Source of the DNA: a virus
IMG/VR virus record: IMGVR_UViG_3300007960_000047
Coordinates: 1 to 42,708 of that record
Direction: 5' to 3' (one strand)
Length of the DNA stretch: 42,708 nt
Part shown: positions 753-41,394 of the stretch, piece after piece
Layout of the letters: every line of letters starts with the position of its first letter
Position numbering within the stretch: the stretch's first letter is position 1
Notes under the pieces: generated by a model
Told to the model about the DNA's origin: nothing
The model's database searches: none
Seen by the model: the letters and a program-made list of their open reading frames with translations, nothing else
Position numbers and translations under genes: made by a program

Positions 753-1007
753 TTAGAGAATTGCGATAATCCAGTTGTCACCATCCCGTTCGGCCTTAAA
801 TTCCAGGCCGACAATCCACAAAGTCTGGCATACGGTGACCATTTCATGCGTGGTTCCGCACACAATCTTCTGCACCTTCAAGAGAATTTCGATAACCCAG
901 TTGTTACCGTCCCGTTCGGCCTTAAATTTTAGGCCGACAATCCACAAAGTCTGGCATACGGTGACCATTTCATGCGTGGTTCCGCACACAATCTTCTGCA
1001 CCTTCAT
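753..1007 (-). CDS. tandemly duplicated small early protein, 84 aa
   Basis: The whole protein is two copies of one 42-residue unit (residues 1-42 and 43-84). Each contains KVQKIVCGTTHEMVTVCQ, then LWIVGL, FKAERDG and NW. The copies differ at only five positions (M/L, K/E, N/D, V/I, E/A). Each unit has two cysteines and one histidine. The start at 1007 follows AAAGGA with a 6-nt spacer. Function unknown; the short alternating hydrophobic segments suggest a small beta-rich fold. It lies among early genes and is followed by a hairpin and a terminator. No related family is recognised. Confidence 0.6.
   Translation of the reverse strand: MKVQKIVCGTTHEMVTVCQTLWIVGLKFKAERDGNNWVIEILLKVQKIVCGTTHEMVTVCQTLWIVGLEFKAERDGDNWIIAIL
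756..1007. repeat. 126-bp tandem direct repeat, two copies
   Basis: Positions 756-881 and 882-1007 are near-identical 126-bp units in the same orientation and in frame, forming the coding sequence of the 84-residue protein. They remain very similar at DNA level, including synonymous sites, which suggests a recent duplication or ongoing homogenisation. Confidence 0.85.
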
Positions 1008-2272: not shown

Positions 2273-2554
2273 TTTCCTATCCTTTCCTATCGGGTCCTAT
2301 CGGGACGATACACTCGCCCCACTATCTAAACGGGACGGTGAGTTTTCACTCACGCAGCCCGTAGGATTTTTTTACGACATATCCGGATCATGCGTGCCAT
2401 CGGTGAAGCCTCCTATCGGGTCCGGCTCATCCGTCCCTACCATTCAAACGCAGCCCACCGTCCACACTCACGCAATCCGACAAGAAAATCCGACAGATTC
2501 CACACTTGAGACTGAGTCTCAATTGCAATCGGACAAATAGCAACCCCCAATTTT

Positions 2555-2582
2555 AGGGTAACCACTATAGGGTAACCACTAT
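2555..2582 (+). promoter_or_regulatory. 14-bp tandem repeat with plus-strand T7-promoter core
   Basis: AGGGTAACCACTAT is repeated perfectly at 2555-2568 and 2569-2582. The junction creates CACTATAGGG on the plus strand, identical to the -7 to +3 core of the T7 class III promoter. The upstream half does not resemble the T7 consensus. It would direct transcription towards the terminase end, opposite to all the genes. Confidence 0.3.
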
Positions 2583-2647
2583 CGGGGACCATCCTATCAC
2601 CCCCCACAATCGGGACACCCGTACCCAAACGAGGGACCATCCGACCA

Positions 2648-2720
2648 CCCACCGAAATCGGGGGGTCTCCAAAGTATAGCACAGATGCTATAGCCTGGAG
2701 ACCCCCCAGTATCGGGTGGG
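2648..2720. repeat. large palindrome (hairpin/cruciform)
   Basis: A perfect 12-bp stem (2660-2671 with 2696-2707, GGGGGGTCTCCA type) encloses a 3x3 internal loop, a 7-bp stem (TATAGCA/TGCTATA) and a CAGA loop. Outside it, CCCACC (2648-2653) can pair with GGTGGG (2715-2720) across a further internal loop. Either strand can form it. It lies in the probable terminus and could be a terminator, a concatemer-processing site or an origin element. Confidence 0.8.
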
Positions 2721-2765
2721 GCTATGGGGGGGCAGGTGGGTTGCTTTTAGTTCAGTATCCCGCCA

Positions 2766-2813
2766 TAATGTGCCGGATGTAAATTTGACACGACGTAATG
2801 TGCCGGATGTAAA
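2766..2813. repeat. 18-bp direct repeat, 30-bp period
   Basis: TAATGTGCCGGATGTAAA occurs perfectly at 2766-2783 and 2796-2813. The 30-bp period places the copies on nearly the same face of the helix, as in paired protein-binding sites. TTGACA lies between the copies on the plus strand, but I do not see a convincing matching -10. Confidence 0.75.
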
Positions 2814-2975
2814 ATCTAGGAGGTGTTACCACATATGGTGGCTACAGGCTCGACATTTGACACTAGACACTATTTGTGGTGCCTTGGGTTTCCCCAGACC
2901 CCTTCCCCTAGGTATAGACATCTGACACTATTGTAGTAGACATATGTAGTAGTAGTCATTGTGAATAATCTGACC

Positions 2976-2986
2976 GGGGGGGGGGG
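2976..2986. repeat. 11-nt G homopolymer
   Basis: Eleven consecutive G residues (C on the transcribed minus strand) lie about 17 nt downstream of the 3003-3016 promoter core. The length may vary or be miscounted by sequencing. Confidence 0.7.
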
Positions 2987-2997
2987 ATACTTAGGCC

Positions 2998-3022
2998 CTT
3001 TCTCCTATAGTTATCCAACAGA
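2998..3022 (-). promoter_or_regulatory. T7-like phage promoter, phiOR position
   Basis: The minus strand reads GGATAACTATAGGA at 3016-3003, identical over 14 bases to the site near 41740 and sharing AACTATAGGA with the site near 28490. T7 promoters contain CTATAGG at the same place around +1. It lies just after the large terminase gene, as phiOR does in T7, and would transcribe the terminus and early genes. Confidence 0.7.
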
Positions 3023-3046
3023 CGTAAAGCATTTACCCACAGTCAC

Positions 3047-4750
3047 TTACAACCTCCTCCAACTAGACCTCTTCTTACCCCTATGTACCGTAGTTCTACT
3101 CAGATAATTGTCCTTCCTCCGTGTCCTACCGTGAGCCTCTCTATCCCACGCTGCCAGTTCATCTTCCTTCCGTTTCTGTTCCTGCTCCAGTTGCATCTTG
3201 TCCAGATCCCTGAACATGTGTCCGGTGAACAGGCTACACACACCAGCCAGAGATTCAATCCGGTCATCGTGCCTCAGGCATCCCCTATCCCTGGTGACAT
3301 GGGTCAACTGGTACGCAGACTCCACATCCTTCAGACACAGGGGGTCGATAACCAACCGGTGACTGGTCAACACAGGTTCCAGTACGTCACAGATCCACGG
3401 TTCCTTACTCCCACGCTTAGCAGCCTTGGGTGCGTCCTCCACACCGATACCCAACCCCAGTTCTTCGTTCACCACCCTAGCCAAGTGAGTGGTGTACATA
3501 CCGTCACCATAGTCAGGCTCCACAACAATCCTGTTCACCTTACAGCGTTCAGCAATCTGTGCCAACTTCCGCAGGGTAGCCCCATCGTACCCACCGTCCA
3601 GTCCACCCCAGGCAGGAACCCGGATAAGACCATCCAGCATGTACCCTACCGCGTACCCAACCTCATCCTTCCCTCGTCCAGCCGGGTCCACCCACATCAC
3701 CTTGTCCGTGTAGGATTCCCACTCCGGTGAGACAAAGCCATGCTCATAGTACCGATCGTTACCGATACCCGGTGACTCCATCCCCTGTAGTGCCTTCACA
3801 TTCGCGTACACAATCCGCTTAGGCCCAACATCCGGGTCCACGTTATGCACGATAATGTCCCGCAGTTTTAACGGGAACCTACCCTCATCCGACAGCGTAG
3901 GATCCAGCATACGCTGCAACTGGTACCGGCTGGGACTGAGAGCCTTCACCTCCAGCAACTTCTCGATAGGCCAACGCTCAGGATAGGTAGCGTCCCCAGG
4001 CACAGCCTGACCACTCTCCAGTGCATCCCTGAGCCACGGAGCCAAGATCCACATACACCCGACACCACTCCCGTCATCCTCCGTAGGATCTGGATACTGT
4101 GCGGGAATACGGATACCGTTGTACCCCATGTCCTTCACCACATCCACCAGCACAGCCTCCACACTCTGGAAGGTGCCGATAACGGTGATGGTCCCACCGG
4201 GGTTCACCACGTCCTCGTACTCGTAGATCTTCTCCTTGATCTTGTCCCGAGCCTCCACCGTCCGACTGTTCTCCGGTGTCTCCAGATCGTCAGCGATAAT
4301 GTGGTCTACGTGACTACCGGTCACCATGCTGGCCAGACCGTACGCAGCCAGACTGGGGTCCTTATCCGCATACGTACGGTTACTCAACACTAGCCGCAAC
4401 TGTCCCCACAGGTCGTCCCCATCCGGCCTCATCTCAGCCAGATACGGACTGGACTCAATCAACTTCTTTACGAACCCCACGATCTTGGTAGCGTGCAACT
4501 GCGTACCCGCCTGCACCAGCACGGTGGCATTGGGGTTCCGCTTAAAGTACCAGCAGATCAGGGCAGCGATCAACAGCGTCTTCCCGAAGTTCCGCATAGC
4601 AAACAGTGCCCTGCGTTCCCCAGCGTTCTGAATCCACCGGGCTGTCTCAATCTGGATAGGGTGGGGTTCAATATTCAGACAGTCCCATATCAAGTGCATG
4701 AAAAAAGCGAAATCTTCTTTCATGGCTTTTTGAATCTCGGCTTCAGTCAT
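3047..4750 (-). CDS. terminase large subunit (T7 gp19-like)
   Basis: The ATPase-nuclease motor that packages concatemeric DNA into the procapsid through the portal. The 567 residues compare with about 586 in T7 gp19. The N-terminal ATPase has a Walker A-like AMRNFGKT (residues 51-58) and Walker B IIADDLET (151-158). The C-terminal RNase H-like nuclease shows VDPAGRGKD (acidic residue D355), VEPDYGDG (E411, D413) and HDDRIES (D495/D496). A highly basic tail ends SSWRRL. The start has GGAGG four bases upstream. It is the last late gene, followed by a phage promoter and the probable genome end, matching T7 order. It works with the small subunit at 4890-5105. Confidence 0.96.
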   Translation of the reverse strand: MTEAEIQKAMKEDFAFFMHLIWDCLNIEPHPIQIETARWIQNAGERRALFAMRNFGKTLLIAALICWYFKRNPNATVLVQAGTQLHATKIVGFVKKLIESSPYLAEMRPDGDDLWGQLRLVLSNRTYADKDPSLAAYGLASMVTGSHVDHIIADDLETPENSRTVEARDKIKEKIYEYEDVVNPGGTITVIGTFQSVEAVLVDVVKDMGYNGIRIPAQYPDPTEDDGSGVGCMWILAPWLRDALESGQAVPGDATYPERWPIEKLLEVKALSPSRYQLQRMLDPTLSDEGRFPLKLRDIIVHNVDPDVGPKRIVYANVKALQGMESPGIGNDRYYEHGFVSPEWESYTDKVMWVDPAGRGKDEVGYAVGYMLDGLIRVPAWGGLDGGYDGATLRKLAQIAERCKVNRIVVEPDYGDGMYTTHLARVVNEELGLGIGVEDAPKAAKRGSKEPWICDVLEPVLTSHRLVIDPLCLKDVESAYQLTHVTRDRGCLRHDDRIESLAGVCSLFTGHMFRDLDKMQLEQEQKRKEDELAAWDREAHGRTRRKDNYLSRTTVHRGKKRSSWRRL

Positions 4751-4889: not shown

Positions 4890-5105
4890 CTACCCCTCCG
4901 CCACCTGCATACGGAGGTGCTTAGCCGCCTTCAGCAGGGTGGGGTTAATGTCTGACTCAGGGATGTCCGCAGGCTCTTGGATACCTTGGTCCTTTAGAAA
5001 CTTGACAATCTGCTCCAGTTCCTTAGGGTCCAGAGTCTCGTCCCCATCCAGACGCTGGCAGATATACTCACAGAAGGAAGCAAAGACTTTCTCAGCCTTG
5101 GTCAT
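4890..5105 (-). CDS. terminase small subunit (T7 gp18-like), putative
   Basis: A short, largely helical acidic protein of 71 residues (MTKAEKVFASFCEYICQRLDG, then DPKELEQIVKFLKDQGI) immediately upstream of the large terminase. T7 gp18 is 89 residues and holds the same place. Small terminase subunits form rings that recognise the packaging site and regulate the motor. There is no clear helix-turn-helix, so the call rests on position, size and composition. The start has AAGGAG with a 6-nt spacer. Structured spacers with shared repeats flank the gene on both sides, which is unusual and may bear on its expression or on DNA recognition. Confidence 0.7.
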   Translation of the reverse strand: MTKAEKVFASFCEYICQRLDGDETLDPKELEQIVKFLKDQGIQEPADIPESDINPTLLKAAKHLRMQVAEG

Positions 5106-5247: not shown

Positions 5248-5841
5248 TTACTTACCGATTCCCTGCTTAGCCACCAGACGGGCCACACCCTGAGCCACAG
5301 CCTTATCACCCTTACGGATGATCTCCTGCTGGGCCAGGATATCCTTGGTCATGGTGACGGGGATTTCGGCGTTCTCGATCGTTTCGAGAGCGATGTCCAC
5401 ACCCTTCTTACGTCCGTTAAGCCATCCACCAATAACTCCCAGCAGACCAGAGAGGCCAACAGCAACAGGAGCGTAGGGGCCTCCGAAGATCGCCCCCACA
5501 GTAGTACCGACCTCTCCAATTGCCAGTAGAGCATTTCCAACTGACTCACCTTCGCTCAACTCCAGAGTAGCCAGCCGCTCACGCAGCAGGGGAAGTTCGG
5601 ACTCCATACGGTCGAGGTAGGCATCCAGCCGTACCTTCACCTCAGCAGCGTCCTGCTTAACGCTATCAGGCACAGCGGGGTTATCCAGAATCTCATCCAC
5701 CTTCTGCAACAGATCCTCCACACGGGTGATCTCCTGCTCGTAGGTGGCAATGTTGTTGGACACCCCACGCACTTCGGCACCCGTGCAGCCAACCAGCAGC
5801 ACCATAAGTACCAGTAGAATCAACAGATTACGAATCTTCAT
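5248..5841 (-). CDS. lipoprotein with spanin-like topology, putative u-spanin
   Basis: A 197-residue protein beginning MKIRNLLILLVLMVLLVGC, a lipoprotein signal peptide with lipobox LVGC (Cys19). Residues about 28-98 are charged and heptad-like, probably coiled coil. Residues about 103-141 are Gly/Ala-rich and hydrophobic and could span a membrane once or twice, followed by a charged tail. Outer-membrane lipid anchor plus inner-membrane segment is the layout of unimolecular spanins, which fuse the two membranes at the end of lysis. The tail is longer than usual, so a holin-like or other lysis role is possible. The start at 5841 follows AGAGGA; the longer frame lacks a ribosome site. It overlaps the preceding gene by 14 nt. 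Confidence 0.5.
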   Translation of the reverse strand: MKIRNLLILLVLMVLLVGCTGAEVRGVSNNIATYEQEITRVEDLLQKVDEILDNPAVPDSVKQDAAEVKVRLDAYLDRMESELPLLRERLATLELSEGESVGNALLAIGEVGTTVGAIFGGPYAPVAVGLSGLLGVIGGWLNGRKKGVDIALETIENAEIPVTMTKDILAQQEIIRKGDKAVAQGVARLVAKQGIGK

Positions 5842-6805
5842 ACAGTTTCCTCTTAGGTAAACGCCCCATGTCATCAGCCAATATTCCAATTGTCGGATCA
5901 ACAGTGTCCAGTGACTGAACAGCCAAACGTCTGGCTACAGCGTTAAACTCAGCAATACGGTCCTGAATACCGGAGGTTTGAAAACTAAGTGTATCACCAC
6001 CGTCTCCCCAACCAAACAATCCAGCGTTCAGCCTTTTACAGACCTTTTCAGCCTCCGCCAGATACGCTCTCCAGACAGAGCCGTCAGACAGACTAGCAGC
6101 AGCGGGATTGCCAAAGATAAGCAAAGTAGGAGTAGACACGATGCCCATACTGGCCCATGCCTCCAGCATCCCAACCCATGCCTGTTCTGTCTGTTCCAGA
6201 TTGGCTAGTGTGGTATCCAGAGAGTCTGTCGTGCAGGACACGCAGACATAGGGAAACATGCCCTGCTCCACCCATGCCGTAGCCATGTGCTCGTAAGTAC
6301 AATCGTTTGTATCAAACGTATGGATCTGGTTAGGGTAGGCAAACAACGCAGTCTTCCCACGCAAGGCTTCCCAGTCACCTTTAACTCTAGCGATGTGCCT
6401 GCTGGCAGCAAGACGATCATTGTAGTTAGCCGCATCTGGATTCAGAGCAATAGCGGTGGAGCCCATCTCAAGATTGAGAAACACAGGGTAATTTTCACCC
6501 CAGTTTTCTCCGTTGTACTGCCGACTTGTTGTCCTGTCTAGGACATCTAGAATAATGGGATACGACCCACGGCTAAACGGCAGTGCCGCAGGAGCATCGT
6601 AGTCCACGTCTTCGGGTGTGTAAGTAACACCCTGATAGCTGACAGAATCTTCTGGATCATCTTCATCCAGACCAAGGTTGAACTGAAACTCGTAGACACC
6701 ACGACAGAACTTTAAATAACTTGTATCCCATCGCTGATCTACCTGTCCAGAACTACGACCGCCTTGGTTGACAAAGCGAGTCCATGAGTAGAATGACCTG
6801 ATCAT
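5828..6805 (-). CDS. late protein of unknown function, possible TIM-barrel hydrolase fold
   Basis: A 325-residue protein starting MIRSFYSWTRFVNQGG. No family is recognised with confidence. The middle (about residues 95-290) alternates short hydrophobic strands with helices in a beta/alpha-barrel-like way: PIILDVLD, YPVFLNLEMG, KTALFAYPNQ, MFPYVCVSCTT, VSTPTLLIFG, NAGLFGWGDGG. Acidic residues sit at the ends of some strands, as in glycoside hydrolases. There is no signal peptide or membrane segment. It lies between the large spike-like protein and the lipoprotein, so it may be a virion-associated or lysis glycosidase; this is inference. AAGGAG lies three bases before the start. Confidence 0.45.
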   Translation of the reverse strand: MIRSFYSWTRFVNQGGRSSGQVDQRWDTSYLKFCRGVYEFQFNLGLDEDDPEDSVSYQGVTYTPEDVDYDAPAALPFSRGSYPIILDVLDRTTSRQYNGENWGENYPVFLNLEMGSTAIALNPDAANYNDRLAASRHIARVKGDWEALRGKTALFAYPNQIHTFDTNDCTYEHMATAWVEQGMFPYVCVSCTTDSLDTTLANLEQTEQAWVGMLEAWASMGIVSTPTLLIFGNPAAASLSDGSVWRAYLAEAEKVCKRLNAGLFGWGDGGDTLSFQTSGIQDRIAEFNAVARRLAVQSLDTVDPTIGILADDMGRLPKRKLYEDS

Positions 6806-6812
6806 AGACTCC

Positions 6813-9341
6813 TTACCAACGCCTGCGACGACGTTTGTTCAACAGCATACTCATGATAATAGCCCCGTCGTTGTATCCACCACTACTGGGTGAAGTGATA
6901 CCCACCGCAAGGTCTGTGAAGTTCGCCACGGGTGCCCCGTTGCTGGTGGTCGTGATGTATCCGCTGCTGTTGTTCAGCGTCACTCTCCAGTTGCTGTCAC
7001 CGATAGCCGGGGTGTCGCCTGTGAATCCGATCTTCAGCGTGTTGCCGCCGACGACTTCCAGGCTGTTGACAGCCTCCGGTGTCCCACCCGGCTTGCTGAC
7101 CGTTACCGGGTAGATGAAGAACCCGCCAGGCTCCGTGTAGGTGATGCCCGCGTCGAAGACAATGTAGACAAACCGTTCGCCCGCGTAGGCGTAGGCCCCG
7201 GTCGCGCCTGCTGGTGCAAGGCCGGGTGACGGTGCCGCCGTGACCCCTTGCAACGCACCGATTGCCGCGTTGGTCGGTGGCACTGGCGAACCATCTGCCG
7301 CGTAGGTGACGAACCGGGTAGCAATCGCCCCCGCCAGTGCCTCGCCCGTGGCGGGCTGGTACGTTGTATCCGTATCGACAAACAGCGTGGACGCCGCCGT
7401 GCCGCTGCCTCCACCGATGCGGATGCCGTCTGTGCCCAGTGTCCCGAGCGTGCTTTGGTAGCAGTCAACCCAGTACGACGCGGTGATGTTTACGTCGATG
7501 CCGAGCGACTCCGTGATGGAGTCGTTGAACACACCACGAAACAGACAGTTTGACATAGTCGTTTCGAGGTCGTTGTCGGACAAAGCGAGTTCATCAAGCC
7601 ACGAAGATGCGTAGAAGTAACAAGACGACATTTGTAGATCGTCAATCTGTGCTTTTTCCGCGCCTGCGTTGGGCTCAGAAATGGTCCCGAACTGAAGAAA
7701 CCGACTCAGCAGTGTCGGCGTTGCGCCCGACCCGTTGCAAAAAATTGGTGCCTGCACGCCGGTGAGATTACGAAACAGACATTGCCACTGGATCGCGTCG
7801 GCACTCGTCTGCGCCTCGCGGATCTGAAGCGTGTCGCAGTGTGTCCCGGTGCTCGTGGAGTCAATGTCCTCACCTAGCGTGTTGAACTGCAAAACGCTGC
7901 TGCCAGCGGTAACCTGATTAATGTCGTTCGCGTTATTCGAAAACGTGCACGAACGGTGCCGGTCGAATGTGGTAGATGTCTGGCACGCCGATACCTTGCT
8001 GTCCCTTGCCTCAATATATTCGAAGTTACCGAACGGGACTGCCGCCATAGAGGCCGTGCGGCCCGGCCCAATAATATCTACGTTCTCAAAGATCAGCCAG
8101 TTGTCGGTGCCAGCTGGCCCGGTAGTGCCAGCCTGTGGTGCGCCCGTGCGAAGCGTGCTAGTCGCGTCAAACTGCACCGTCAGGTCGTCGAGTTTCAGGA
8201 TAGCGGTACGCAGTCCGTCGTTGTCTGCGGAGCCGGTGATTCTGGCGTTTGCCTTTGTGGCAGACGGCAGCCGCGTGACAATGACCGGGCCGAGGCTTGT
8301 GTCCGATCTTTCTCCGTAAGTTTCCGTTCCAAGAAGGTGGTCATCTTCCACGATATACGCCACGCACCAAGACGCGGTCCCGTGCGCGGGTGCAGCGGTT
8401 GTGCCATCCCCTCGCTGCATCTCGCTAATGGCCGTGTGCAGATCGGCATACGGGTTTGCCGCCGCCGTCGCGTCAACACTGTCCGTCCCTGCGTAGTACC
8501 CGCCGTCACCTGTCGCCACACGCCCGGTAGCATCGTCGCCGTTTGTTGGATCGACGACCGCGTGCCGGAACTCGTACGCCGCGGCCGGGTCGAGGTAGAT
8601 GTAGTGCGTGTGCGGGTCGGTCGTGACGCTGTCCGCGTCCCCAATCTTTGGGTAAGCCGACGCCGTGATAGACGCCAGACCAGTCGTCGCCGCAGTCGTC
8701 CAATCGCCGCCGTTTGTCGGATCGAACGGCCCGACACGAAACAGCACTTCCTTCTCGTATGCACCGTTGCTTCCGGCGCGGTCCACCGTCGTCAGGCTTG
8801 TGGCTTCCTTGGTTACAGCTGTGCCGCTGCCGCCCCAGTTGTCGGTGACGGTCACGGACACCTTTGCAAGACCAAGCTCCCCCTCGTGCCCGTTGTAGAC
8901 GCGGCCACCGGCCACCACGTCAACGTAGAACCCCTCGCCCTGCGTGTAGCTGATGCGAGGCGACACCATCAGGCACACGGCCTCTGGATAGTCGAGCGTG
9001 CTGTTGTTCGTGACGCTGGCCCCACTCACCGCGTTGCTGGACACGCTGCCGTCCGTGACCGCTCCCGCGTCCATGTCCAGCGTGACGGAAGTGGTGTCGT
9101 CGTGGATCGGTTCTTCCAGGTAGCCCGTGACCGTCGTTCCGCTGGCCGATCGGTAGAACACCCGGATGCCGGTACGGCTGCCCGTGCTGGTCGTGCCGTT
9201 GACCTCGTCGGTGCAGTCGATGGTGCCCATCTCGTCGCCAACCGACGTGGTCACGGATGCCCCGGTCAGGCTGTCCACGGTAAAGGTGATCTCGGTGCCA
9301 TTGGCCGCGATGGCCGGGCTGGTCACGTCTCCGCTTGCCAT
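6813..9341 (-). CDS. large beta-rich spike or adhesin-like protein, 842 aa
   Basis: A Gly/Ser/Thr/Asp-rich protein. Residues about 1-230 look like beta-sandwich modules (repeated VSVTVTDN, GSSV-like strands). Residues about 250-700 contain a DPTNGDDATG...YAD.HTAI segment followed by many short strands with Asn/Ser/Cys turns, as in right-handed beta-helices of tail spikes and pectate-lyase-like proteins. A beta-sandwich-like C-terminus ends MLLNKRRRRRW. It probably binds or degrades a host surface polysaccharide, but no catalytic residues can be assigned. The gene is clearly richer in G+C than its neighbours (a sample line at 9061-9120 is 63%), suggesting transfer. The start has only a weak GGGG site, and a 16-codon leader ends on it. 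Confidence 0.55.
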   Translation of the reverse strand: MASGDVTSPAIAANGTEITFTVDSLTGASVTTSVGDEMGTIDCTDEVNGTTSTGSRTGIRVFYRSASGTTVTGYLEEPIHDDTTSVTLDMDAGAVTDGSVSSNAVSGASVTNNSTLDYPEAVCLMVSPRISYTQGEGFYVDVVAGGRVYNGHEGELGLAKVSVTVTDNWGGSGTAVTKEATSLTTVDRAGSNGAYEKEVLFRVGPFDPTNGGDWTTAATTGLASITASAYPKIGDADSVTTDPHTHYIYLDPAAAYEFRHAVVDPTNGDDATGRVATGDGGYYAGTDSVDATAAANPYADLHTAISEMQRGDGTTAAPAHGTASWCVAYIVEDDHLLGTETYGERSDTSLGPVIVTRLPSATKANARITGSADNDGLRTAILKLDDLTVQFDATSTLRTGAPQAGTTGPAGTDNWLIFENVDIIGPGRTASMAAVPFGNFEYIEARDSKVSACQTSTTFDRHRSCTFSNNANDINQVTAGSSVLQFNTLGEDIDSTSTGTHCDTLQIREAQTSADAIQWQCLFRNLTGVQAPIFCNGSGATPTLLSRFLQFGTISEPNAGAEKAQIDDLQMSSCYFYASSWLDELALSDNDLETTMSNCLFRGVFNDSITESLGIDVNITASYWVDCYQSTLGTLGTDGIRIGGGSGTAASTLFVDTDTTYQPATGEALAGAIATRFVTYAADGSPVPPTNAAIGALQGVTAAPSPGLAPAGATGAYAYAGERFVYIVFDAGITYTEPGGFFIYPVTVSKPGGTPEAVNSLEVVGGNTLKIGFTGDTPAIGDSNWRVTLNNSSGYITTTSNGAPVANFTDLAVGITSPSSGGYNDGAIIMSMLLNKRRRRRW

Positions 9342-9391
9342 CAGTCAATCCCCCGCAAGGTATCTGCTACCGTATAACATGCGTTACTCAT
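9341..9391 (-). CDS. possible 16-residue leader peptide, coupled to spike gene
   Basis: A short frame encoding MSNACYTVADTLRGID with a good ribosome site (AAGGA, 6-nt spacer). Its stop overlaps the start of the 842-residue protein by one base (TGATG). The large gene has a poor site of its own, so translation may re-initiate from this leader. It could also be a remnant of a longer N-terminus. Confidence 0.35.
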   Translation of the reverse strand: MSNACYTVADTLRGID

Positions 9392-9427
9392 TGTGTATCC
9401 TTTCTACGGACAACCTTCTGGACTACG

Positions 9428-10042
9428 TTAACCGCTGTCCTCTTGACTGCCCTTAGCAGTTGGGCCAAGTGAAATACCATTTACAAACTCCTGTGTGTGT
9501 TCTGTTTCTAGCCTGACCATGCCTCTTTCAAACTTCCGAAAAAGTTCCATGTCCATACAGCGACCACCGATAGCAACGATCTCTGTTCTGGATGCGTCCC
9601 AGATAGGATGCTTCTGAACCCACAGGTCTATTGTTTCGGAGTCAGGATCTTTAGGATCTTTAGGGACACGCTCGATAAACTCGACAACCTTACCGCTGGC
9701 TAGTACCTCTCGATCATGTGCCGCAAAGGCCAACGCAACATACTTAGGCCACACTTCGTGGTCGTACCGTCCAACATATTCTTCTGACTTGATCTTGAAG
9801 GTTTCTTCATACGCACGATTGATCAGTTTCATACGACCGTCAACCGACTTGGCCCACTTGGGAATAGGCGAGGAGTCTATCAGGGCTAGTGGTAGACCGT
9901 TTGCCCGCACCACCTGTGCTTCCGTATAGGATCTGTTCTTGTCAATTTCTTTCTTGACATCCCCACGGATTCTTGTCATTAGGCCGTACGCCACGCCTAT
10001 TGCTACCAGTGTCTGGGCAAAGTCTACCAGTAGTTGTTCCAT
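9428..10042 (-). CDS. membrane-anchored PAS-domain protein
   Basis: A 204-residue protein with an N-terminal hydrophobic segment (about residues 4-22, LLVDFAQTLVAIGVAYGL), a charged linker, and a PAS-like domain at about 55-168. The domain shows the usual order: a start near PIPKWAKSVDGRM, INRAYEETF, EEYVGRYDHEVWP, FAAHDREVLASGK, then WVQKHPIWDA and IVAIGGRCMDM at the final strands. PAS domains sense small ligands, redox state or light, or mediate pairing. No output domain is present; the tail is short and acidic. GAGGTG lies five bases upstream of the start. It sits among tail and lysis genes, where the membrane anchor might point to a lysis or signalling role. Confidence 0.65.
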   Translation of the reverse strand: MEQLLVDFAQTLVAIGVAYGLMTRIRGDVKKEIDKNRSYTEAQVVRANGLPLALIDSSPIPKWAKSVDGRMKLINRAYEETFKIKSEEYVGRYDHEVWPKYVALAFAAHDREVLASGKVVEFIERVPKDPKDPDSETIDLWVQKHPIWDASRTEIVAIGGRCMDMELFRKFERGMVRLETEHTQEFVNGISLGPTAKGSQEDSG

Positions 10043-10051
10043 GTTTACACC

Positions 10052-10213
10052 TCAGCCAACGAACGGAGGACCAGGATTCAGCCCATCCGTGTAATCCAAA
10101 GCAGGATCTGTAGAGATGGTAGCACCTCCGGTGTCTCCGCCATCGTCTCCGGGGTCACCACCACCTCCATTATCCACAGTTTCTGAACCGTACTGAATAA
10201 CCAGAATCCACAT
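10052..10213 (-). CDS. hypothetical Gly/Asp-rich protein, 53 aa
   Basis: A short protein: hydrophobic start MWILVIQYGSE, a Gly/Asp-rich middle (DNGGGGDPGDDGGDTGG) and a Pro-containing end (NPGPPFVG). Its start overlaps the stop of the preceding gene by one base (TAATG), which supports translation by coupling; no other ribosome site is obvious. It could be a small virion component or linker peptide; function unknown. Confidence 0.5.
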   Translation of the reverse strand: MWILVIQYGSETVDNGGGGDPGDDGGDTGGATISTDPALDYTDGLNPGPPFVG

Positions 10214-10638
10214 TACAGTGTCTCCAGATAGATCTCAATGACCAGACCGGTAGCAGGATCTGTAGCGGCTGCGGTGTAGTCAATCACAATCTGTAGAGAT
10301 TCGTTGAGAGCGACATAGTCAGAGGTAGAACTGCTGAAGGTAGTACCGTCACTATCTGTAGTTTCGTTTTCAAACGTTGCCAGCATAGCCGGACTGTCGT
10401 CGCCACCGGTAAGACTCACCGTAGTCCACGAACCCGGTGCCCCAACTTGCAACGACACAGTAGGATTGTCGCTGGTTTCAAACGTAGCACAGACATGTCG
10501 GAATCCGGTGATCCGCATGTTAGAGGGAGCAGACAGAAGTGGGCGGAAGTAGTAGGTGTTTCCTGCTGCTAGAGAGGCAATCTCGTAGTGAATAACGTTT
10601 CGGTTATTCATCATGTCTTGAGAAACTTGCTGTGTCAT
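10213..10638 (-). CDS. small beta-rich protein after tail fibre, 141 aa
   Basis: A beta-rich, Thr/Ser-rich protein (NTYYFRPLL, VSLQVGAPGSW, LQIVIDYTAAATDP, LVIEIYLETL) with no Cys pairs, signal or membrane segments. The start follows AAGGAT with a 5-nt spacer. It lies directly downstream of the tail fibre gene and is co-transcribed with it. That position and the all-beta character fit a small virion or fibre-accessory protein, or a fibre chaperone, but no family is recognised. Confidence 0.55.
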   Translation of the reverse strand: MTQQVSQDMMNNRNVIHYEIASLAAGNTYYFRPLLSAPSNMRITGFRHVCATFETSDNPTVSLQVGAPGSWTTVSLTGGDDSPAMLATFENETTDSDGTTFSSSTSDYVALNESLQIVIDYTAAATDPATGLVIEIYLETL

Positions 10639-10647
10639 GGGCTATCC

Positions 10648-12033
10648 TTAACTTCCATTTCCAAAGGCAATACACCGCACTGTGCCGGACGTCCCATAGT
10701 TCAGTGAAACATTGACTGTACTTCCAGTACCTGATGCCCACGTAGCGGTATTTGTTCCATCAATATCGTGTACATAGCCAGTGCCAAAGAGAGGCACAAG
10801 GTAATCGCCACTGCCGCTAGGCGAAACCATAAACATGAACAATTTTACGGTAAACGAAGCGGTGTATGATCCTGAACTAGTGCCATCACCGTTGTTTGAA
10901 ATTGTCATTGTACCAATAGAAAACTGATTACCAGTGATCTGTGACTGTAGACGAGCCTCTGCTGCATCTACATAACCTTTGTTGGCCGAGTCTCCAGATG
11001 CCGAAGGTGTCCCAAGATTGGTCAACTTATAGGTATTCATGTTGTAGTTGGCAGTAGGAATATTCAGATTGTTAAGGCGACGTAAGTCCACCGCATCGTT
11101 AAAATCTACAATATCACCAGCCACGCCCAGCCGTACATCCACATTACCATTTGCATCTACAATAAGCAAACGACGGTCTACGCCGGATGCCATCTTGAGA
11201 TGATCGTTGTCAATCTGTCCGTCCTGAATCATATCACTAGTGATACTGCCGTCAGGCAAGGAGGACGCAACTACTGAACCAGAAACAGTACGGACAAGGA
11301 TGTTGTCTGTACCGGTAGGGGGAGCGGTGTTAAACTGTAGGGTACGGATAGCACCGGTGACATCCAGATCGTAGTCTAGCGTCACCACCGGGTCCACTTC
11401 GTTGTCATCCGGCCTCTGATCCACACCAGAGACAGAGACAAACAACTGCTTGGCAACCGTCAGGCCAGAAGGAGCATCGGTCAACACAAAGTCGGTAGTG
11501 CTACCGTCACCACTAAACACCCAAGTGTCAAGGTTATCAATCTCAGAGATGTTGAGCCCAGCTACCGCAGCGTTCATCTGCGACACAGTAACTAGACTGT
11601 TACCACTGGTACCTGCGGAGGCGTTCTTTACCTCCAGTCCCTGTCCTGCCCAGTACGCACCAGAGACATCCTTGATCATTGCATCTTCGAGATCATCCAG
11701 ATTTTCTTGGATAAGGTAGAACAACTGGTTGCTGTCCCGGTTGAACACATCCTCATCCGTCACACTGTTGTCTACATAGTCAACATAACGGGAGGTGTTC
11801 TGAGTCTCCCGTGCCACGGTAACAATCGTACCGTTAGCAGGTGCAGCTACAAACGTCACCTTGCTAGGGGATGCGACAATAGAATAGTCAGTGGTAAACG
11901 TCTGCAACACACCGTTTACATACACCTTGATCTGGTTAGACCAAGCAATTTCATCGTCAGGAATCAGGTCAAAGGCAAACGGAAAGTCCACCTGTGACCC
12001 ATTCCCTGTGTAGGTTACTCTACTAAGAGCCAT
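10648..12033 (-). CDS. tail fibre protein (T7 gp17 N-terminal domain)
   Basis: A 461-residue fibre that attaches to the tail and binds the host. The N-terminus (about 1-115) matches the T7 tail fibre anchoring domain: VTYTGNGSQVDFPFAF, IKVYVNGVLQ, DYSIV, VARETQ, DEDVFNRDSNQLFYLIQENLDDL. A second module at about 171-250 repeats the same plan (FSGDGSTTDF, LFVSVSGVDQ, LDYDL, NTAPPTGTDNILV). A helical shaft with the typical NKGYVDAAEARLQSQI follows, then a beta C-terminus. AAGGAT precedes the start. The C-terminal tip is shorter than in T7, so receptor binding may be shared with the 842-residue protein. Confidence 0.88.
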   Translation of the reverse strand: MALSRVTYTGNGSQVDFPFAFDLIPDDEIAWSNQIKVYVNGVLQTFTTDYSIVASPSKVTFVAAPANGTIVTVARETQNTSRYVDYVDNSVTDEDVFNRDSNQLFYLIQENLDDLEDAMIKDVSGAYWAGQGLEVKNASAGTSGNSLVTVSQMNAAVAGLNISEIDNLDTWVFSGDGSTTDFVLTDAPSGLTVAKQLFVSVSGVDQRPDDNEVDPVVTLDYDLDVTGAIRTLQFNTAPPTGTDNILVRTVSGSVVASSLPDGSITSDMIQDGQIDNDHLKMASGVDRRLLIVDANGNVDVRLGVAGDIVDFNDAVDLRRLNNLNIPTANYNMNTYKLTNLGTPSASGDSANKGYVDAAEARLQSQITGNQFSIGTMTISNNGDGTSSGSYTASFTVKLFMFMVSPSGSGDYLVPLFGTGYVHDIDGTNTATWASGTGSTVNVSLNYGTSGTVRCIAFGNGS

Positions 12034-27825: not shown

Positions 27826-28088
27826 GTGTCATCTCCTTTGCGTAGGAAGGTTAGTGGAGTGTCTGGCTTCACCGGAAGTTCATCACGGTTGTCAGCCAAC
27901 GCATACATACGGGCAAGCAGGGCACCGCTGGCCCTCACCTTACCTTGCAAATACTGAATCTGGTTGGAATCCTCCGGGCCAGACGACAATAGATCCTTCT
28001 CCCAAGCAATCATAAGCGTGAGAAGTTCCTTGTACAGGCTCGGTGAGACGTAGTGTCTCTCGGAGGAGTTCGTCTGGTGTTCTCGCAT
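27822..28088 (-). CDS. hypothetical protein, 88 aa, overlapping papain-like gene
   Basis: A helical, charged protein: VSPSLYKELLTLMIAWEKDLL, then QIQYLQGKVRASGALLARMYALAD, a YLxGKV-type segment often seen in small phage proteins near portal genes. The start at 28088 has AGGAG nine bases upstream, a strong site. This makes a 149-nt overlap in another frame with the end of the 174-residue gene. An internal Met at 28013 would shorten the overlap but has a worse site. Function unknown. Confidence 0.55.
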   Translation of the reverse strand: MREHQTNSSERHYVSPSLYKELLTLMIAWEKDLLSSGPEDSNQIQYLQGKVRASGALLARMYALADNRDELPVKPDTPLTFLRKGDDT

Positions 28089-28464
28089 TACATTCTACTC
28101 CTATGTTCCTCAGGAACTGTCGTCCTCCCCACACACAGGTGACTGCGTTGGGAATGGACACGCTGTCTTTGACTTCCCTAGCCATCGCACGGAGGTTGTA
28201 TTCCAACCCTGCGACTATCCCAGTGGTAGCCTTATGTATATCTGTAGTCACGTTGGGAAACTCTACGGAAATGAACGGAGGAAGCCTGTCCATGAACTCT
28301 TCTGCGTCGTACCAACAGGTAGACCCATGTAGATCACAGTTGTAGACTAGGTTGTTTATCCACAGTGCTGTATGTCCGAATACCTGACCGGAGGCACGGC
28401 GGTAGGGCATGTTCTGTGGTGTCCTCGGGTAGTAGAGAAAACCGATGTAGTGACCCTTCTCCAT
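27940..28464 (-). CDS. possible permuted papain-like (NlpC/P60-type) protein, 174 aa
   Basis: The first gene after the promoter near 28490. An early FGHTALWINN (His31) and a later SIPNAVTCVWGGRQFL (Cys110) give the His-before-Cys order of circularly permuted papain-like enzymes (NlpC/P60 YiiX-like, LRAT-like). Such proteins cleave peptide or acyl bonds, and a cell-wall or lysis role would be plausible since no other lysin is recognised. The call rests on two motifs only. It has no signal peptide. The last 50 codons are overlapped by the next gene. A weak GGGGTAA-type leader precedes the start. Confidence 0.45.
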   Translation of the reverse strand: MEKGHYIGFLYYPRTPQNMPYRRASGQVFGHTALWINNLVYNCDLHGSTCWYDAEEFMDRLPPFISVEFPNVTTDIHKATTGIVAGLEYNLRAMAREVKDSVSIPNAVTCVWGGRQFLRNIGVECNARTPDELLRETLRLTEPVQGTSHAYDCLGEGSIVVWPGGFQPDSVFAR

Positions 28465-38373: not shown

Positions 38374-38725
38374 TACGATCTCCCTTCTGGATAGTGTACT
38401 CACTTCCACTGTTGTTCACCAAGATAACCTTGACATCCCCACGGTAGTCACTGTCGATAGTGCCGGGGGAATTAGCCACCGTGATTCCCTTACTGGATAG
38501 GCCACTTCTGGACCTGATCAACATTTCCCACCCCGGTGGTAGTGCAACTTTGAACCCTGTATATATGATTCTACGCTCACCAGATGCCAAAGTCAAGGAC
38601 TCGTACGACCGTAGATCTACGCAACTTGAGCCACGGGTGGCGTACGTTGGGATAAAGTCAGGGTCTACTGCGTCAATCAGAATCGTCTGCTGTTGAATGG
38701 GTGTCTCCGATGTCAACGAGTTCAC
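38264..38725 (-). CDS. dut: dUTPase (deoxyuridine triphosphatase)
   Basis: Hydrolyses dUTP to dUMP and pyrophosphate, protecting DNA from uracil and supplying ThyX. All five trimeric-dUTPase motifs are present: ATRGSSCVDLRS (about 29-40), RSRSGLSSKG (71-80), SPGTIDSDYRGD (86-97, catalytic D91 and Y94), KGDRIAQACI (114-123) and the C-terminal RGGGGFGSTG. The family length of about 150 fits a GTG start at 38725 (153 residues); the frame is open further but would lie inside the reductase gene. The ribosome site is weak, and the start overlaps the reductase end by 53 nt, suggesting coupling. Confidence 0.9.
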   Translation of the reverse strand: MNSLTSETPIQQQTILIDAVDPDFIPTYATRGSSCVDLRSYESLTLASGERRIIYTGFKVALPPGWEMLIRSRSGLSSKGITVANSPGTIDSDYRGDVKVILVNNSGSEYTIQKGDRIAQACIQRTVRICFAPGSITEESTDRGGGGFGSTGH

Positions 38726-39634
38726 AGTGGTTGCCTGAGCAAGCGTAGGACTGTGATCCCACAGTGTTGTCCTCTCGCTCGTAGTCTGCAAGTTGGGTCC
38801 AGTCAATGTGTTCGGGGGTAAGTTCTCGCAGAGATTCATATTCCTCCTTGGTACACTCCTGATAGGGTGCCTGCTTGTAGGTGCCGCCGTCCCACGGGAG
38901 GAACGACACCCCACTCATGTGGTCAAAGTGTTCGTACACCCAGGCACCAACCTTCAGCCACTCGTCTTCCTTCACACTCACGGTGATGCTGGGCTTGTGT
39001 TCGCACCAATACTTCTGGTACGTCAGCCACAGTTCCAACTGTTGGATAGCGTCCTGATCCTCACGGTACACCGCACCCTCCGGTGCCTTGACCGGAAAGT
39101 AGAACACGGTGGTGGTGTCAGGCTTCATCACACAGGGCTCATGCTTGACTCCCTGTTCCTTCAGGAATTGGGTGAGGGGATCTTTGTTGTCACCACGGAC
39201 AGACCGGATGTAGTAGGGGCTGTACCGTGGGTGGATACCAGAGGCAGAGTTACACAACTGTGACACCGTACCGCTGGGCTTGACACAGGTGATGGCAGCC
39301 GAAGGGTTGATGCCCAGACGCTCTGCCCACGTCTCGTTGGTAGCAATGGCTTCATCCTTTAGACGGCCAAGAAGTGTCGGGAGATACCCGTGTGTCCCGT
39401 TGGTTAGCGGGTTGTCCATGATACCAGTGAGTGACACACCCAGCAGTGCTTCCTCCTCCGTGTTACGCTTCCACTTCTTGCGGAGGTAACGGAAGTCGGT
39501 TAGCGTAGCCTGAAGGGTACCAAGGATGGTAGCCACCCGCACCTTACGGAGCAGGCTTTCCTGTGTGTCATCCGGTCGGACTACCAGCTCGGTTAGATTA
39601 CAAAAGGCACATGACCGCAGGGTAATTTCTGAAC
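38673..39634 (-). CDS. nrdJ: class II ribonucleotide reductase, exon 2
   Basis: The second exon, joined to exon 1 (40440-41394) by intron removal. The join codes for NPCSEI: the thiyl-radical Cys319 comes from T of exon 1 plus GT of exon 2, with Asn317 and Glu321 completing the catalytic triad. Downstream are SCAFCNLTEL (Cys330, partner of Cys84), LLGVSLTGIMDNPL, CVKPSGTVSQLCNSASGIHPRY (P-loop-like finger) and a C-terminal CSGNHC (Cys617, Cys622), the redox pair with the C-x4-C spacing of monomeric B12-dependent reductases such as that of Lactobacillus leichmannii. An ATG at 39677 opens this frame inside the intron, but that product would lack the catalytic Cys. The spliced protein has 638 residues. 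Confidence 0.9.
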
Positions 39635-40439
39635 CATTGTTGTTACTAGACCACAGCATTTCTGTGTGGTTCCCCATGTTACCACGGGGATCAGACTATA
39701 TCACCACCCGACAGAGCCGGGGCAATACGTTCGAGTTTGTATTCAAAGCTTGGAAGGACATACGGTCGGACAGTGTCAACAAAGAGTTGAATGTCCTTTG
39801 TCTTGACACGAAGGTGCCAATACTTACCGTGTCTCACGACAGATGTGCGGATGTTGGTCTTATCGTAGATAGCCTTGCTTAGGGCTTGGTTATCTGCGTA
39901 AGAGAATCCCTTGGTGTGCAGACCGACGCTGGCGTGAGGATTCTTGAACCGTGTGTCAAGATGTGTGCCCCCGTCTGCCATGAAGATAATAGCCAACGCT
40001 TCGGCATCCATCATGGCTAGCATGTGAGGGTCAATAACTTTCTTCTTGTCAATGTACACACGATCTCGGATCTTCGTCAGCTTCGGGTGCCGCTTGGACT
40101 CCAGACGCACTTGCGGGGCACGGGTGTACCCATCTGTGTTGTAATCTGGACGATCCCTAATCACACACCCGACGAAGGTTTCCAAGGTTTCTTTTACCCA
40201 CTCCACGTAGTCTAGGTTTTCTTTACGCATGTTCATAATGAACTGAGCGTTACACTTGCTGTTCTTCTGATAGATGCCACCATCAAAGGTAGCCATGTAA
40301 TACAGTCGCTTTGAAATATCTTTACTCATAGTCGTTACACCTCCCTATACAGGGTTGGCACGGGATTGTCCTAATAGGAGTTCCCCCGTTTTTAGTATTG
40401 TTATTCGATCGTTATTGCTAACGAAAGCCGCATTCGTTT
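39635..40439 (-). other. group I intron in ribonucleotide reductase gene
   Basis: An 805-nt intron with classical group I boundaries: exon 1 ends in U and the intron ends in G. P1 pairs exon CCGU with GCGG at 40431-40428, giving the required U-G pair at the 5' splice site. P10 pairs GAAU (40435-40432) with the 3' exon GUUC. P4 is ACGGG (40389-40385) with CCCGU (40364-40360), enclosing a UCCU/AGGA P5. P6 is GCC/GGU with a CCCU-GUAU-AGGG extension. P7 is GACUA (40333-40329) with UAGUC (39698-39694). The splice restores NPCSEI exactly. The endonuclease gene occupies the loop inside P7. P3 is only weakly drawn (UACU/AGUA). Confidence 0.9.
39691..40329 (-). CDS. LAGLIDADG homing endonuclease, intron-encoded
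   Basis: A 212-residue endonuclease that would cut intron-less copies of the reductase gene and so spread the intron. The second LAGLIDADG motif is clear, EALAIIFMADGGTHLD (about 110-124, Asp119); the first, LYYMATFDGGIY (about 9-20), is degenerate. This pattern matches the LAGLIDADG_2 type. Basic segments (RLESKRHPKLTKIRDRVY) suit DNA binding. Its ATG overlaps the 5' strand of P7 and its TGA directly follows the 3' strand of P7. AGGGAGGTG, part of P6, serves as ribosome site 9 bases upstream, so folding of the intron should compete with translation. Confidence 0.88.
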   Translation of the reverse strand: MSKDISKRLYYMATFDGGIYQKNSKCNAQFIMNMRKENLDYVEWVKETLETFVGCVIRDRPDYNTDGYTRAPQVRLESKRHPKLTKIRDRVYIDKKKVIDPHMLAMMDAEALAIIFMADGGTHLDTRFKNPHASVGLHTKGFSYADNQALSKAIYDKTNIRTSVVRHGKYWHLRVKTKDIQLFVDTVRPYVLPSFEYKLERIAPALSGGDIV

Positions 40440-41394
40440 ACGGATTAGTACCGATCCAGTGCACGCCTGGGTCACGACGGTCAGGCATCAGGTCAATGGC
40501 TGCCTGCCGGTTGAAGATCCCACGCTCACCACTCTTGCTCTCGTAGAGGGCGGTCCACTCACGGAGGAAGGAACCTACGGATGGGGTGCCGAGGTATGTG
40601 GCACTGTTGTTGGCGAGGGCTCGCTCTGGGTGGTCGTTCCACCATGCACCAGACTTTGCCGTTGCCAGATCAGTGTCCCCCAGATCAGACAGTGAGATAA
40701 GAGCAGACCGACGAACACCCCCAACCACCACGACTTCTGCCGTCTTGCAGACCAGATCGTGGCACTCCATGCTGGTGAGTTTCCTGCCTGCCGCCTGCTT
40801 GAACACACGCACTGCGAACCTGAACAGTTGGTCGAGGGGCTCTGGTCCACTGGCTCTACCTCCAAAGGTCTTGAGTCTGCTGCCTGCCGGTCGCACTTTG
40901 CTCATGTCCCACCGTGGGATACGACCAAGGTACAGCATGGCGATCAATTCACGGAATGCTTTAGCCCATCCAAGTTTACTGTCGGCTACCACAATGGTGG
41001 TGTCCGTGTGGTAGAACTCGTCAGCCACCACGGGCAACTGACGGATGCACTCCTGCTCGACGCTGAACCCCACACCCGTACCGTTCATCAGGATGTACAG
41101 GATCTCGTCGAACGCAACCTGATCGTCGATGGCAATGAACGCACAGTTGTACCCAGCCACGTTCTCCTTGGCTAGGGCTGGGCCTGCGGTCATCAGGCAC
41201 CGCATACTGGGCATGACCTCCTTGTCGTAGATCGCGTTGTACAGTTCGTCGTATTCCTCCGTAGTCAGAAGGTCACGGAAGAACTCCATGTACCTGGTGA
41301 CCGTCTCCTCCCACGTCTCTCGCCGTCCCTTGTCGTCTACCCACCGGGCGTAGCGAGAAATATGGATAAACTCGGTATACACATCCTCTGTCAA
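40440..41394 (-). CDS. nrdJ: class II ribonucleotide reductase, exon 1
   Basis: The N-terminal half of the B12-dependent reductase that makes deoxyribonucleotides for phage DNA. It shows SRYARW..., MPSMRCLMTAGPAL, GYNCAFI (Cys84, one of the redox pair), ILMNGTGVGFSVE, and ends IGTNP before an in-frame stop formed by intron sequence (TAA at 40438). Without splicing the product ends just before the catalytic Cys. The start is TTG at 41394, with GGAGGTG eight bases upstream inside the 104-residue gene, 3 nt after that gene's stop: clear translational coupling. It lies in the operon driven by the promoter near 41740 with dUTPase and RNA polymerase. Confidence 0.93.

Follow-up and report, generated by a model that had tools for sequence, protein, structure and literature searches.

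What would a T7-like phage do with a PAS domain tethered to a membrane? The question is raised by a 42.7-kb virus contig (the window, by which we mean the whole stretch of 42,708 nucleotides analyzed here). It carries genes for a T7-type RNA polymerase, a helicase-primase and DNA polymerase A, together with portal, capsid-assembly protein, tube, nozzle and gp14-like genes and a T7-type large terminase subunit (TerL). The window TerL shares no more than about 37% identity with those of named phages, so we place the window in a distant T7-like lineage. A sequence-only reading had pointed to one protein with a transmembrane start, a single PAS domain and no output domain, and had called this combination unusual in a T7-like phage. 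It had proposed that the protein senses cell energy, redox state or a ligand to time lysis, or uses the PAS fold to assemble a holin-like complex.

A single PAS domain behind one membrane segment

The protein is encoded by an ATG-initiated minus-strand ORF whose GAGGTG ribosome-binding site (10048..10053, minus strand) overlaps the stop codon of the ORF before it. Its parts are as follows.

9428..10042, minus strand: TM-PAS gene, 204 aa (Pfam, AlphaFold)
9977..10033, minus strand: N-terminal membrane segment, residues 4 to 22 (hydrophobicity and charge)
9533..9874, minus strand: PAS fold, residues 57 to 170 (Pfam, AlphaFold, Foldseek; PAS_4 match at 9584-9877)
9476..9550, minus strand: C-terminal helix after the PAS core, residues 165 to 189 (AlphaFold)

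Profile search and structure prediction both return a PAS domain, and the architecture first read from the sequence is borne out. Residues 56 to 153 match Pfam PAS_4 (E = 2.2e-10), scoring 41.2 bits where the curated cut-off is 23.1, and PAS (PF00989) also exceeds its cut-off. No other PAS_4 match occurs in the genome. An AlphaFold model, run on a 13-sequence alignment, has a canonical PAS core at about residues 57 to 170 (pLDDT 91 to 98 from about residue 61 onward), preceded by a low-confidence helix (residues 2 to 40). Foldseek searches of the PDB with this model return PAS domains, led by that of BvgS (6zj8, E = 1.5e-8). Just 34 residues follow the core, partly as one helix, and Pfam detects no kinase, HTH, GGDEF, signaling or other output domain in the protein.

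The sole membrane-like stretch is LLVDFAQTLVAIGVAYGLM (Kyte-Doolittle 1.72). No positive charge precedes it, and six K/R residues occur among the 20 that follow. By the charge rule, this pattern predicts an N-out/C-in topology with a cytoplasmic PAS domain. We rejected an i-spanin (Rz) identity, which needs an N-in anchor and a periplasmic coiled coil, whereas the charge rule predicts N-out/C-in.

The gene lies in the T7 holin slot

Genes on the minus strand follow one another in the order below, with the PAS gene between the 53-aa and 842-aa genes.

10648..12033, minus strand: gp17-like tail fiber gene, upstream of PAS (PHROG tail fiber matches)
10213..10638, minus strand: 141-aa gene, upstream of PAS (no family match)
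10052..10213, minus strand: 53-aa Gly/Asp-rich ORF, directly upstream of PAS (sequence)
6813..9341, minus strand: 842-aa gene, downstream of PAS (no family match; putative tail or receptor-binding protein by position only)
5828..6805, minus strand: 325-aa gene (no homolog found)
5248..5841, minus strand: lipoprotein, candidate unimolecular spanin (lipobox LVGC, coiled coil, internal hydrophobic stretch)
4890..5105, minus strand: small terminase subunit, TerS (weak T7 DNA-packaging match)
3047..4750, minus strand: large terminase subunit, T7 type (PHROG match, similarity to phage TerL)

To place the gene among tail and lysis genes, as the sequence-only reading did, is fair: a tail fiber gene lies upstream and a spanin-like lipoprotein and the terminase downstream, with no recognizable holin or endolysin annotated near the PAS gene. 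The gene sits in the T7 holin slot, between the gp17-like tail fiber and TerS. In the Pseudomonas phages gh-1 and Henninger, this interval contains the holin (17.5; "class II holin"), and in Bordetella BB8 and Agrobacterium Alfirin it is occupied by small membrane proteins.

The slot invites the explanation that the PAS protein is itself the holin, its membrane helix oligomerizing into a lesion and its cytoplasmic PAS domain controlling oligomerization. Such a protein would be a mirror image of T4 holin T, which has one membrane segment and a periplasmic sensing domain. Small proteins with one or two membrane segments at this place in other T7-like phages argue for it, as does the lack of any other credible holin-type protein among minus-strand ORFs of at least 28 aa in the window. 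The remaining hydrophobic minus-strand ORFs are other frames of known genes or contain a hydrophobic stretch within a soluble protein; the exceptions are the lipoprotein (5248-5841) and an 81-aa ORF at 2437-2682 that has no support. Against it, the 204-aa protein matches no holin family in PHROG or Pfam, and no PHROG at all.

Neither an endolysin nor a DUF5675 gene lies within two genes of the window PAS gene, whose neighbors are tail genes and small ORFs; the nearest recognized lysis-type gene is the lipoprotein, about 3.6 kb downstream. Because no endolysin was identified and that gene is so far off, the lysis assignment in the window rests on position and family. We rejected the 325-aa gene (5828-6805) as an endolysin: it has no family and no relatives, and an AlphaFold model made without an alignment (pLDDT 33) left the fold search uninterpretable. 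The 174-aa protein at 27940-28464 (minus strand) carries a GHTALWINNLVYNC motif that recalls papain-like hydrolases and would make it a possible endolysin; it matches no family or phage relative, and was likewise set aside.

Several other features of the window were recorded. The internal hydrophobic stretch of the lipoprotein (5248-5841, minus strand) is glycine-rich, and the protein has no clear database relatives. A 16-codon ORF at 9342-9392 (minus strand), MSNACYTVADTLRGID, has its own AAAGGA ribosome-binding site and a TGA overlapping the ATG of the 842-aa gene; it is a possible leader peptide or a possible case of translational coupling. Ribonucleotide reductase is split into two ORFs (both phrog_367; 38673-41394, minus strand), and the ORF that separates the halves (39691-40329) encodes a LAGLIDADG homing endonuclease, which suggests an intron or intervening endonuclease. 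The ORF at 753-1007 (minus strand) is a near-perfect direct repeat, with VQKIVCGTTHEMVTVCQTLWIVGL occurring twice.

A phage TM-PAS family

No PAS gene occurs in the 80 TerL-related T7-like contigs, within the stretch of each contig covered. The gene is thus a special feature of the window lineage, and "unusual in a T7-like phage" was an apt description.

No close relatives emerged from single-protein pattern scans with the window PAS protein, TerL or the 325-aa protein; short alignments were needed for such scans to recover the PAS family. Searches with tblastn identified two phage lineages of matching architecture, Cellulophaga phi14:2 and Chryseobacterium MA9V, and small-alignment scans added further members from IMG/VR as well as one from a Flavobacteriaceae assembly. 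A fold search of viral models with the window model points to proteins of Cellulophaga phi18:3 and phi19:1, and a profile search confirms the kinship of both, and of proteins from phiSM and Ingeline (E = 1e-8 to 1e-12, within a small set). The family that emerges from pattern scans, PHROGs and fold search comprises proteins of about 155 to 290 aa in some 20 phage lineages, which span crAss-like, jumbo, T7-like and other phages.

Nearly all members consist of a membrane segment, a coiled coil and one PAS domain. The window protein fits this family, with an N-terminal membrane segment, then one PAS domain and no output domain. All 13 working-alignment members match PAS_4 at E < 0.1, and 8 of the 13 match PHROG 10199, to which phi18:3 gp090 belongs. 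Invariant family residues include P59, P61, M71, N75, Y78, D94, F106, D110, E124 and G160; the window protein retains the invariant residues, so the family signature is present. The charge rule predicts a cytoplasmic PAS domain in the window protein and in 12 of the 13 relatives listed, and the opposite orientation for the phi18:3 type, the phi19:1 type and L032, which have positive N-termini. One relative, L129, lacks a membrane segment and is a soluble member. In another, L128, the TM-PAS gene overlaps a u-spanin-like lipoprotein gene whose product has a C-terminal membrane segment (2386-3485).

Relatives often lie in lysis modules

A peptidoglycan hydrolase gene lies no more than two genes from the PAS gene in 8 of 20 lineages, where random placement predicts 1.15. 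On that basis P is about 7e-6, or about 9e-4 if two lysis genes per genome are allowed; with approximate gene counts and lineages separated by eye, these values are orders of magnitude only. The phi14:2 order is PAS, GH19 endolysin directly after, then a spanin-like gene. That of phiSM is a 2-TM holin-like protein, TM-PAS, an L-Ala-D-Glu peptidase (endolysin), an i-spanin-like gene and a lipoprotein. GH108 directly follows PAS in L023, and L032 has an M15 peptidase directly before TM-PAS and an Rz-like gene directly after. At two genes' distance are Amidase_2 in L126 (TM-PAS, 2-TM protein, Amidase_2), GH108 in L129 (PAS, XhlA-like small holin-like protein, GH108), GH108 in MA9V-2 (before PAS) and the endolysin of phi18:3 (after PAS).

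When DUF5675 is counted, the number rises to 11 of 20 lineages. It takes the place of the endolysin beside PAS in L008, L012 and Ingeline. PHROG 25644 includes both the L008 gene that follows DUF5675 and the phi14:2 gene that follows the endolysin, which indicates that DUF5675 occupies the endolysin slot; it may be a peptidoglycan hydrolase. DUF5675 genes in the endolysin position beside TM-PAS are found at 889-1257 in L008, 6365-6781 in L012 and 3689-4120 in L121. No recognized lysis gene lies beside PAS in the L027 group, L006/L033, the L009 group or L133.

These neighborhoods also bear on whether the PAS protein is the holin. No separate holin is evident next to the endolysin in phi14:2, L023 and L032, and the TM-coil regions of some relatives have weak matches to PHROGs named holin or hol-like chemotaxis, both of which suit a pore former. 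In phiSM, Ingeline, phi18:3, phi19:1 and L126, however, the PAS gene is flanked by separate small 2-TM holin candidates, and the soluble L129 protein adjoins a holin-like gene. We therefore rejected the notion that the PAS protein is always the holin, and consider it unlikely that the window protein is one. The earlier suggestion that the PAS fold helps to assemble a holin-like complex may still hold, but the same evidence speaks against the PAS protein being, in general, the pore. With holin candidates of their own encoded beside several family members, and one member soluble, the protein is better explained as a regulator of the holin step.

Tail genes flank the window PAS gene, and many relatives lie just after tail genes, which could mean that the protein is associated with the virion or tail and that its PAS fold is only an assembly module. 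We regard this as very improbable. In phi14:2, phi18:3, phi19:1 and phiSM, neighboring proteins are marked as detected in virions by mass spectrometry (MS/MS) and the PAS proteins are not; records with such annotation list none of the relatives as a virion component. The N-terminal membrane segment and the location of relatives between tail and lysis genes argue against a virion role as well.

A possible VqmA-like pocket in the PAS domain

The best PDB matches of the family profile are to VqmA, a PAS receptor for the quorum-sensing signal DPO (6ugl, 6kju and 6ide; E = 5e-6), with BvgS behind (5e-4). Structures 6KJU and 6IDE are of DPO-VqmA (PMC8284805), and residues F67, F99 and K101 of VqmA are critical for DPO binding (PMC10426928). 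Two of these three align with conserved family residues. F67 corresponds to F106, which is F or Y in 18 of 18 family sequences checked, and K101 to K144, a lysine in 12 of the 13 aligned members and an arginine in the thirteenth. F99 is not conserved: its counterpart is V142, a position occupied by V, I or L in the family. The family pocket thus appears VqmA-like but not identical, and another ligand would be as likely as DPO. LOV or heme sensing is unsupported, as the family alignment shows neither a LOV cysteine motif nor any conserved Cys or His. Of the signals first proposed, a ligand is plausible, given the kinship to the ligand-binding PAS domain of VqmA and the two retained positions. 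Redox or energy sensing gains no specific support: a conserved Cys and a LOV motif are lacking, and in the closest fold, that of BvgS, no cofactor was found.

No ligand has been found for the BvgS PAS domain, and mechanical action through its flanking helices has been proposed (PMC3726324). By analogy, a mechanical relay of this kind could be an alternative working mode for a helix-PAS-helix protein. It would also accord with a different role, in which the phage protein acts on host signaling as a decoy PAS domain, dimerizing with a host sensor or titrating its ligand, or blocks superinfection at the membrane. PAS domains commonly dimerize, the protein has no output domain, its closest fold is the PAS domain of a sensor kinase for which ligand-free coupling is proposed, and some family members lie away from lysis genes. 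A host-signaling role leaves the repeated endolysin adjacency in unrelated phages unexplained, and we hold it to be quite unlikely.

A proposed regulator of lysis timing

We propose, with modest confidence, that the TM-PAS protein is a membrane-anchored regulator of lysis timing in the phage lysis module, and that it probably helps to set the moment of host-cell lysis. Two findings strengthen the lysis link of the sequence-only reading: unrelated phages repeatedly carry homologs in their lysis modules, and the window gene occupies the T7 holin slot. The N-terminal helix would tether the protein to the inner membrane, with the PAS domain in the cytoplasm by the charge rule. There, the PAS domain would most likely bind a small molecule or a partner, and the resulting conformational change would pass through the PAS-flanking helices to the holin step, so that the signal could advance or delay lysis. 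The holin contacted would be a separate protein in phiSM, Ingeline, phi18:3 and L126; in lineages with no other holin candidate, the PAS protein itself might form the pore.

A broader proposal is possible, though we find it doubtful. Besides holin, endolysin and spanins, the lysis cassettes of many unrelated phages might contain a dedicated PAS sensor that, at the membrane, uses a VqmA-like pocket to read a host- or population-derived small molecule and gates the holin step directly, allowing lytic phages to time lysis chemically without transcription. Direct chemical gating of the holin, if true, would be categorically new. PAS proteins have already been annotated in phages (phi14:2 g078), but we found no paper in the open-access literature that links a PAS domain to a holin or a lysis cassette, or a sensor domain to lysis timing.

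Lysis time is among the most important phage traits. The signals behind it have been worked out in few systems, namely T4 lysis inhibition (RI and T) and, for induction, VqmA-phi. A sensor-type domain in lysis modules across phages would connect the holin directly, and in a testable way, to a chemical or metabolic cue, and the isolated members (Cellulophaga phages phiSM, phi14:2, phi18:3 and Ingeline) make the idea testable.

Comparison with known systems

The closest counterparts in phages are the "PAS fold protein" g078 of phi14:2 (crAss-like, Steigviridae) and gene 249 of MA9V-2. Both have the same order of N-terminal membrane segment, coiled coil and one PAS domain, as well as lysis neighbors and the shared invariant residues. 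They differ in sequence (26% identity over the length) and in their Bacteroidota hosts, and their annotation is by similarity only, with no function proposed. PHROG 10199 (phi18:3 gp090) and PHROG 31932 (phi19:1 gp108), neither functionally annotated in PHROGs, likewise combine a membrane segment and a PAS fold near an endolysin. In contrast to the window protein, they have the opposite predicted topology and a degenerate PAS domain, with no Pfam PAS match in those scanned.

T7 gp17.5 and the Ghunavirus holin (Henninger gp45) occupy the same genome interval and have one membrane segment, but are about 70 aa long, have no PAS domain and show no sequence similarity to the window protein. The BvgS PAS domain (6zj8) is the best Foldseek and best single-sequence PDB match of the window protein, but belongs to a histidine kinase.

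The nearest known ideas are T4 T/RI lysis inhibition and VqmA-phi. In T4, holin T and antiholin RI set lysis time through one membrane segment and a soluble domain that takes the signal. The sensing domain of T is periplasmic and is not a PAS domain; the window protein would work in a like manner, without homology. VqmA is the closest solved relative of the family profile, with aligned N33, Y36, D53, F67, D71 and K101 conserved. VqmA-phi of phage VP882 is a phage PAS protein that controls entry into lysis, connecting a host signal to lysis via transcription (PMC12802170). Unlike the window protein, which has a membrane anchor and no C-terminal HTH DNA-binding domain, VqmA is a soluble, HTH-containing transcription factor that controls the lysis-lysogeny switch.
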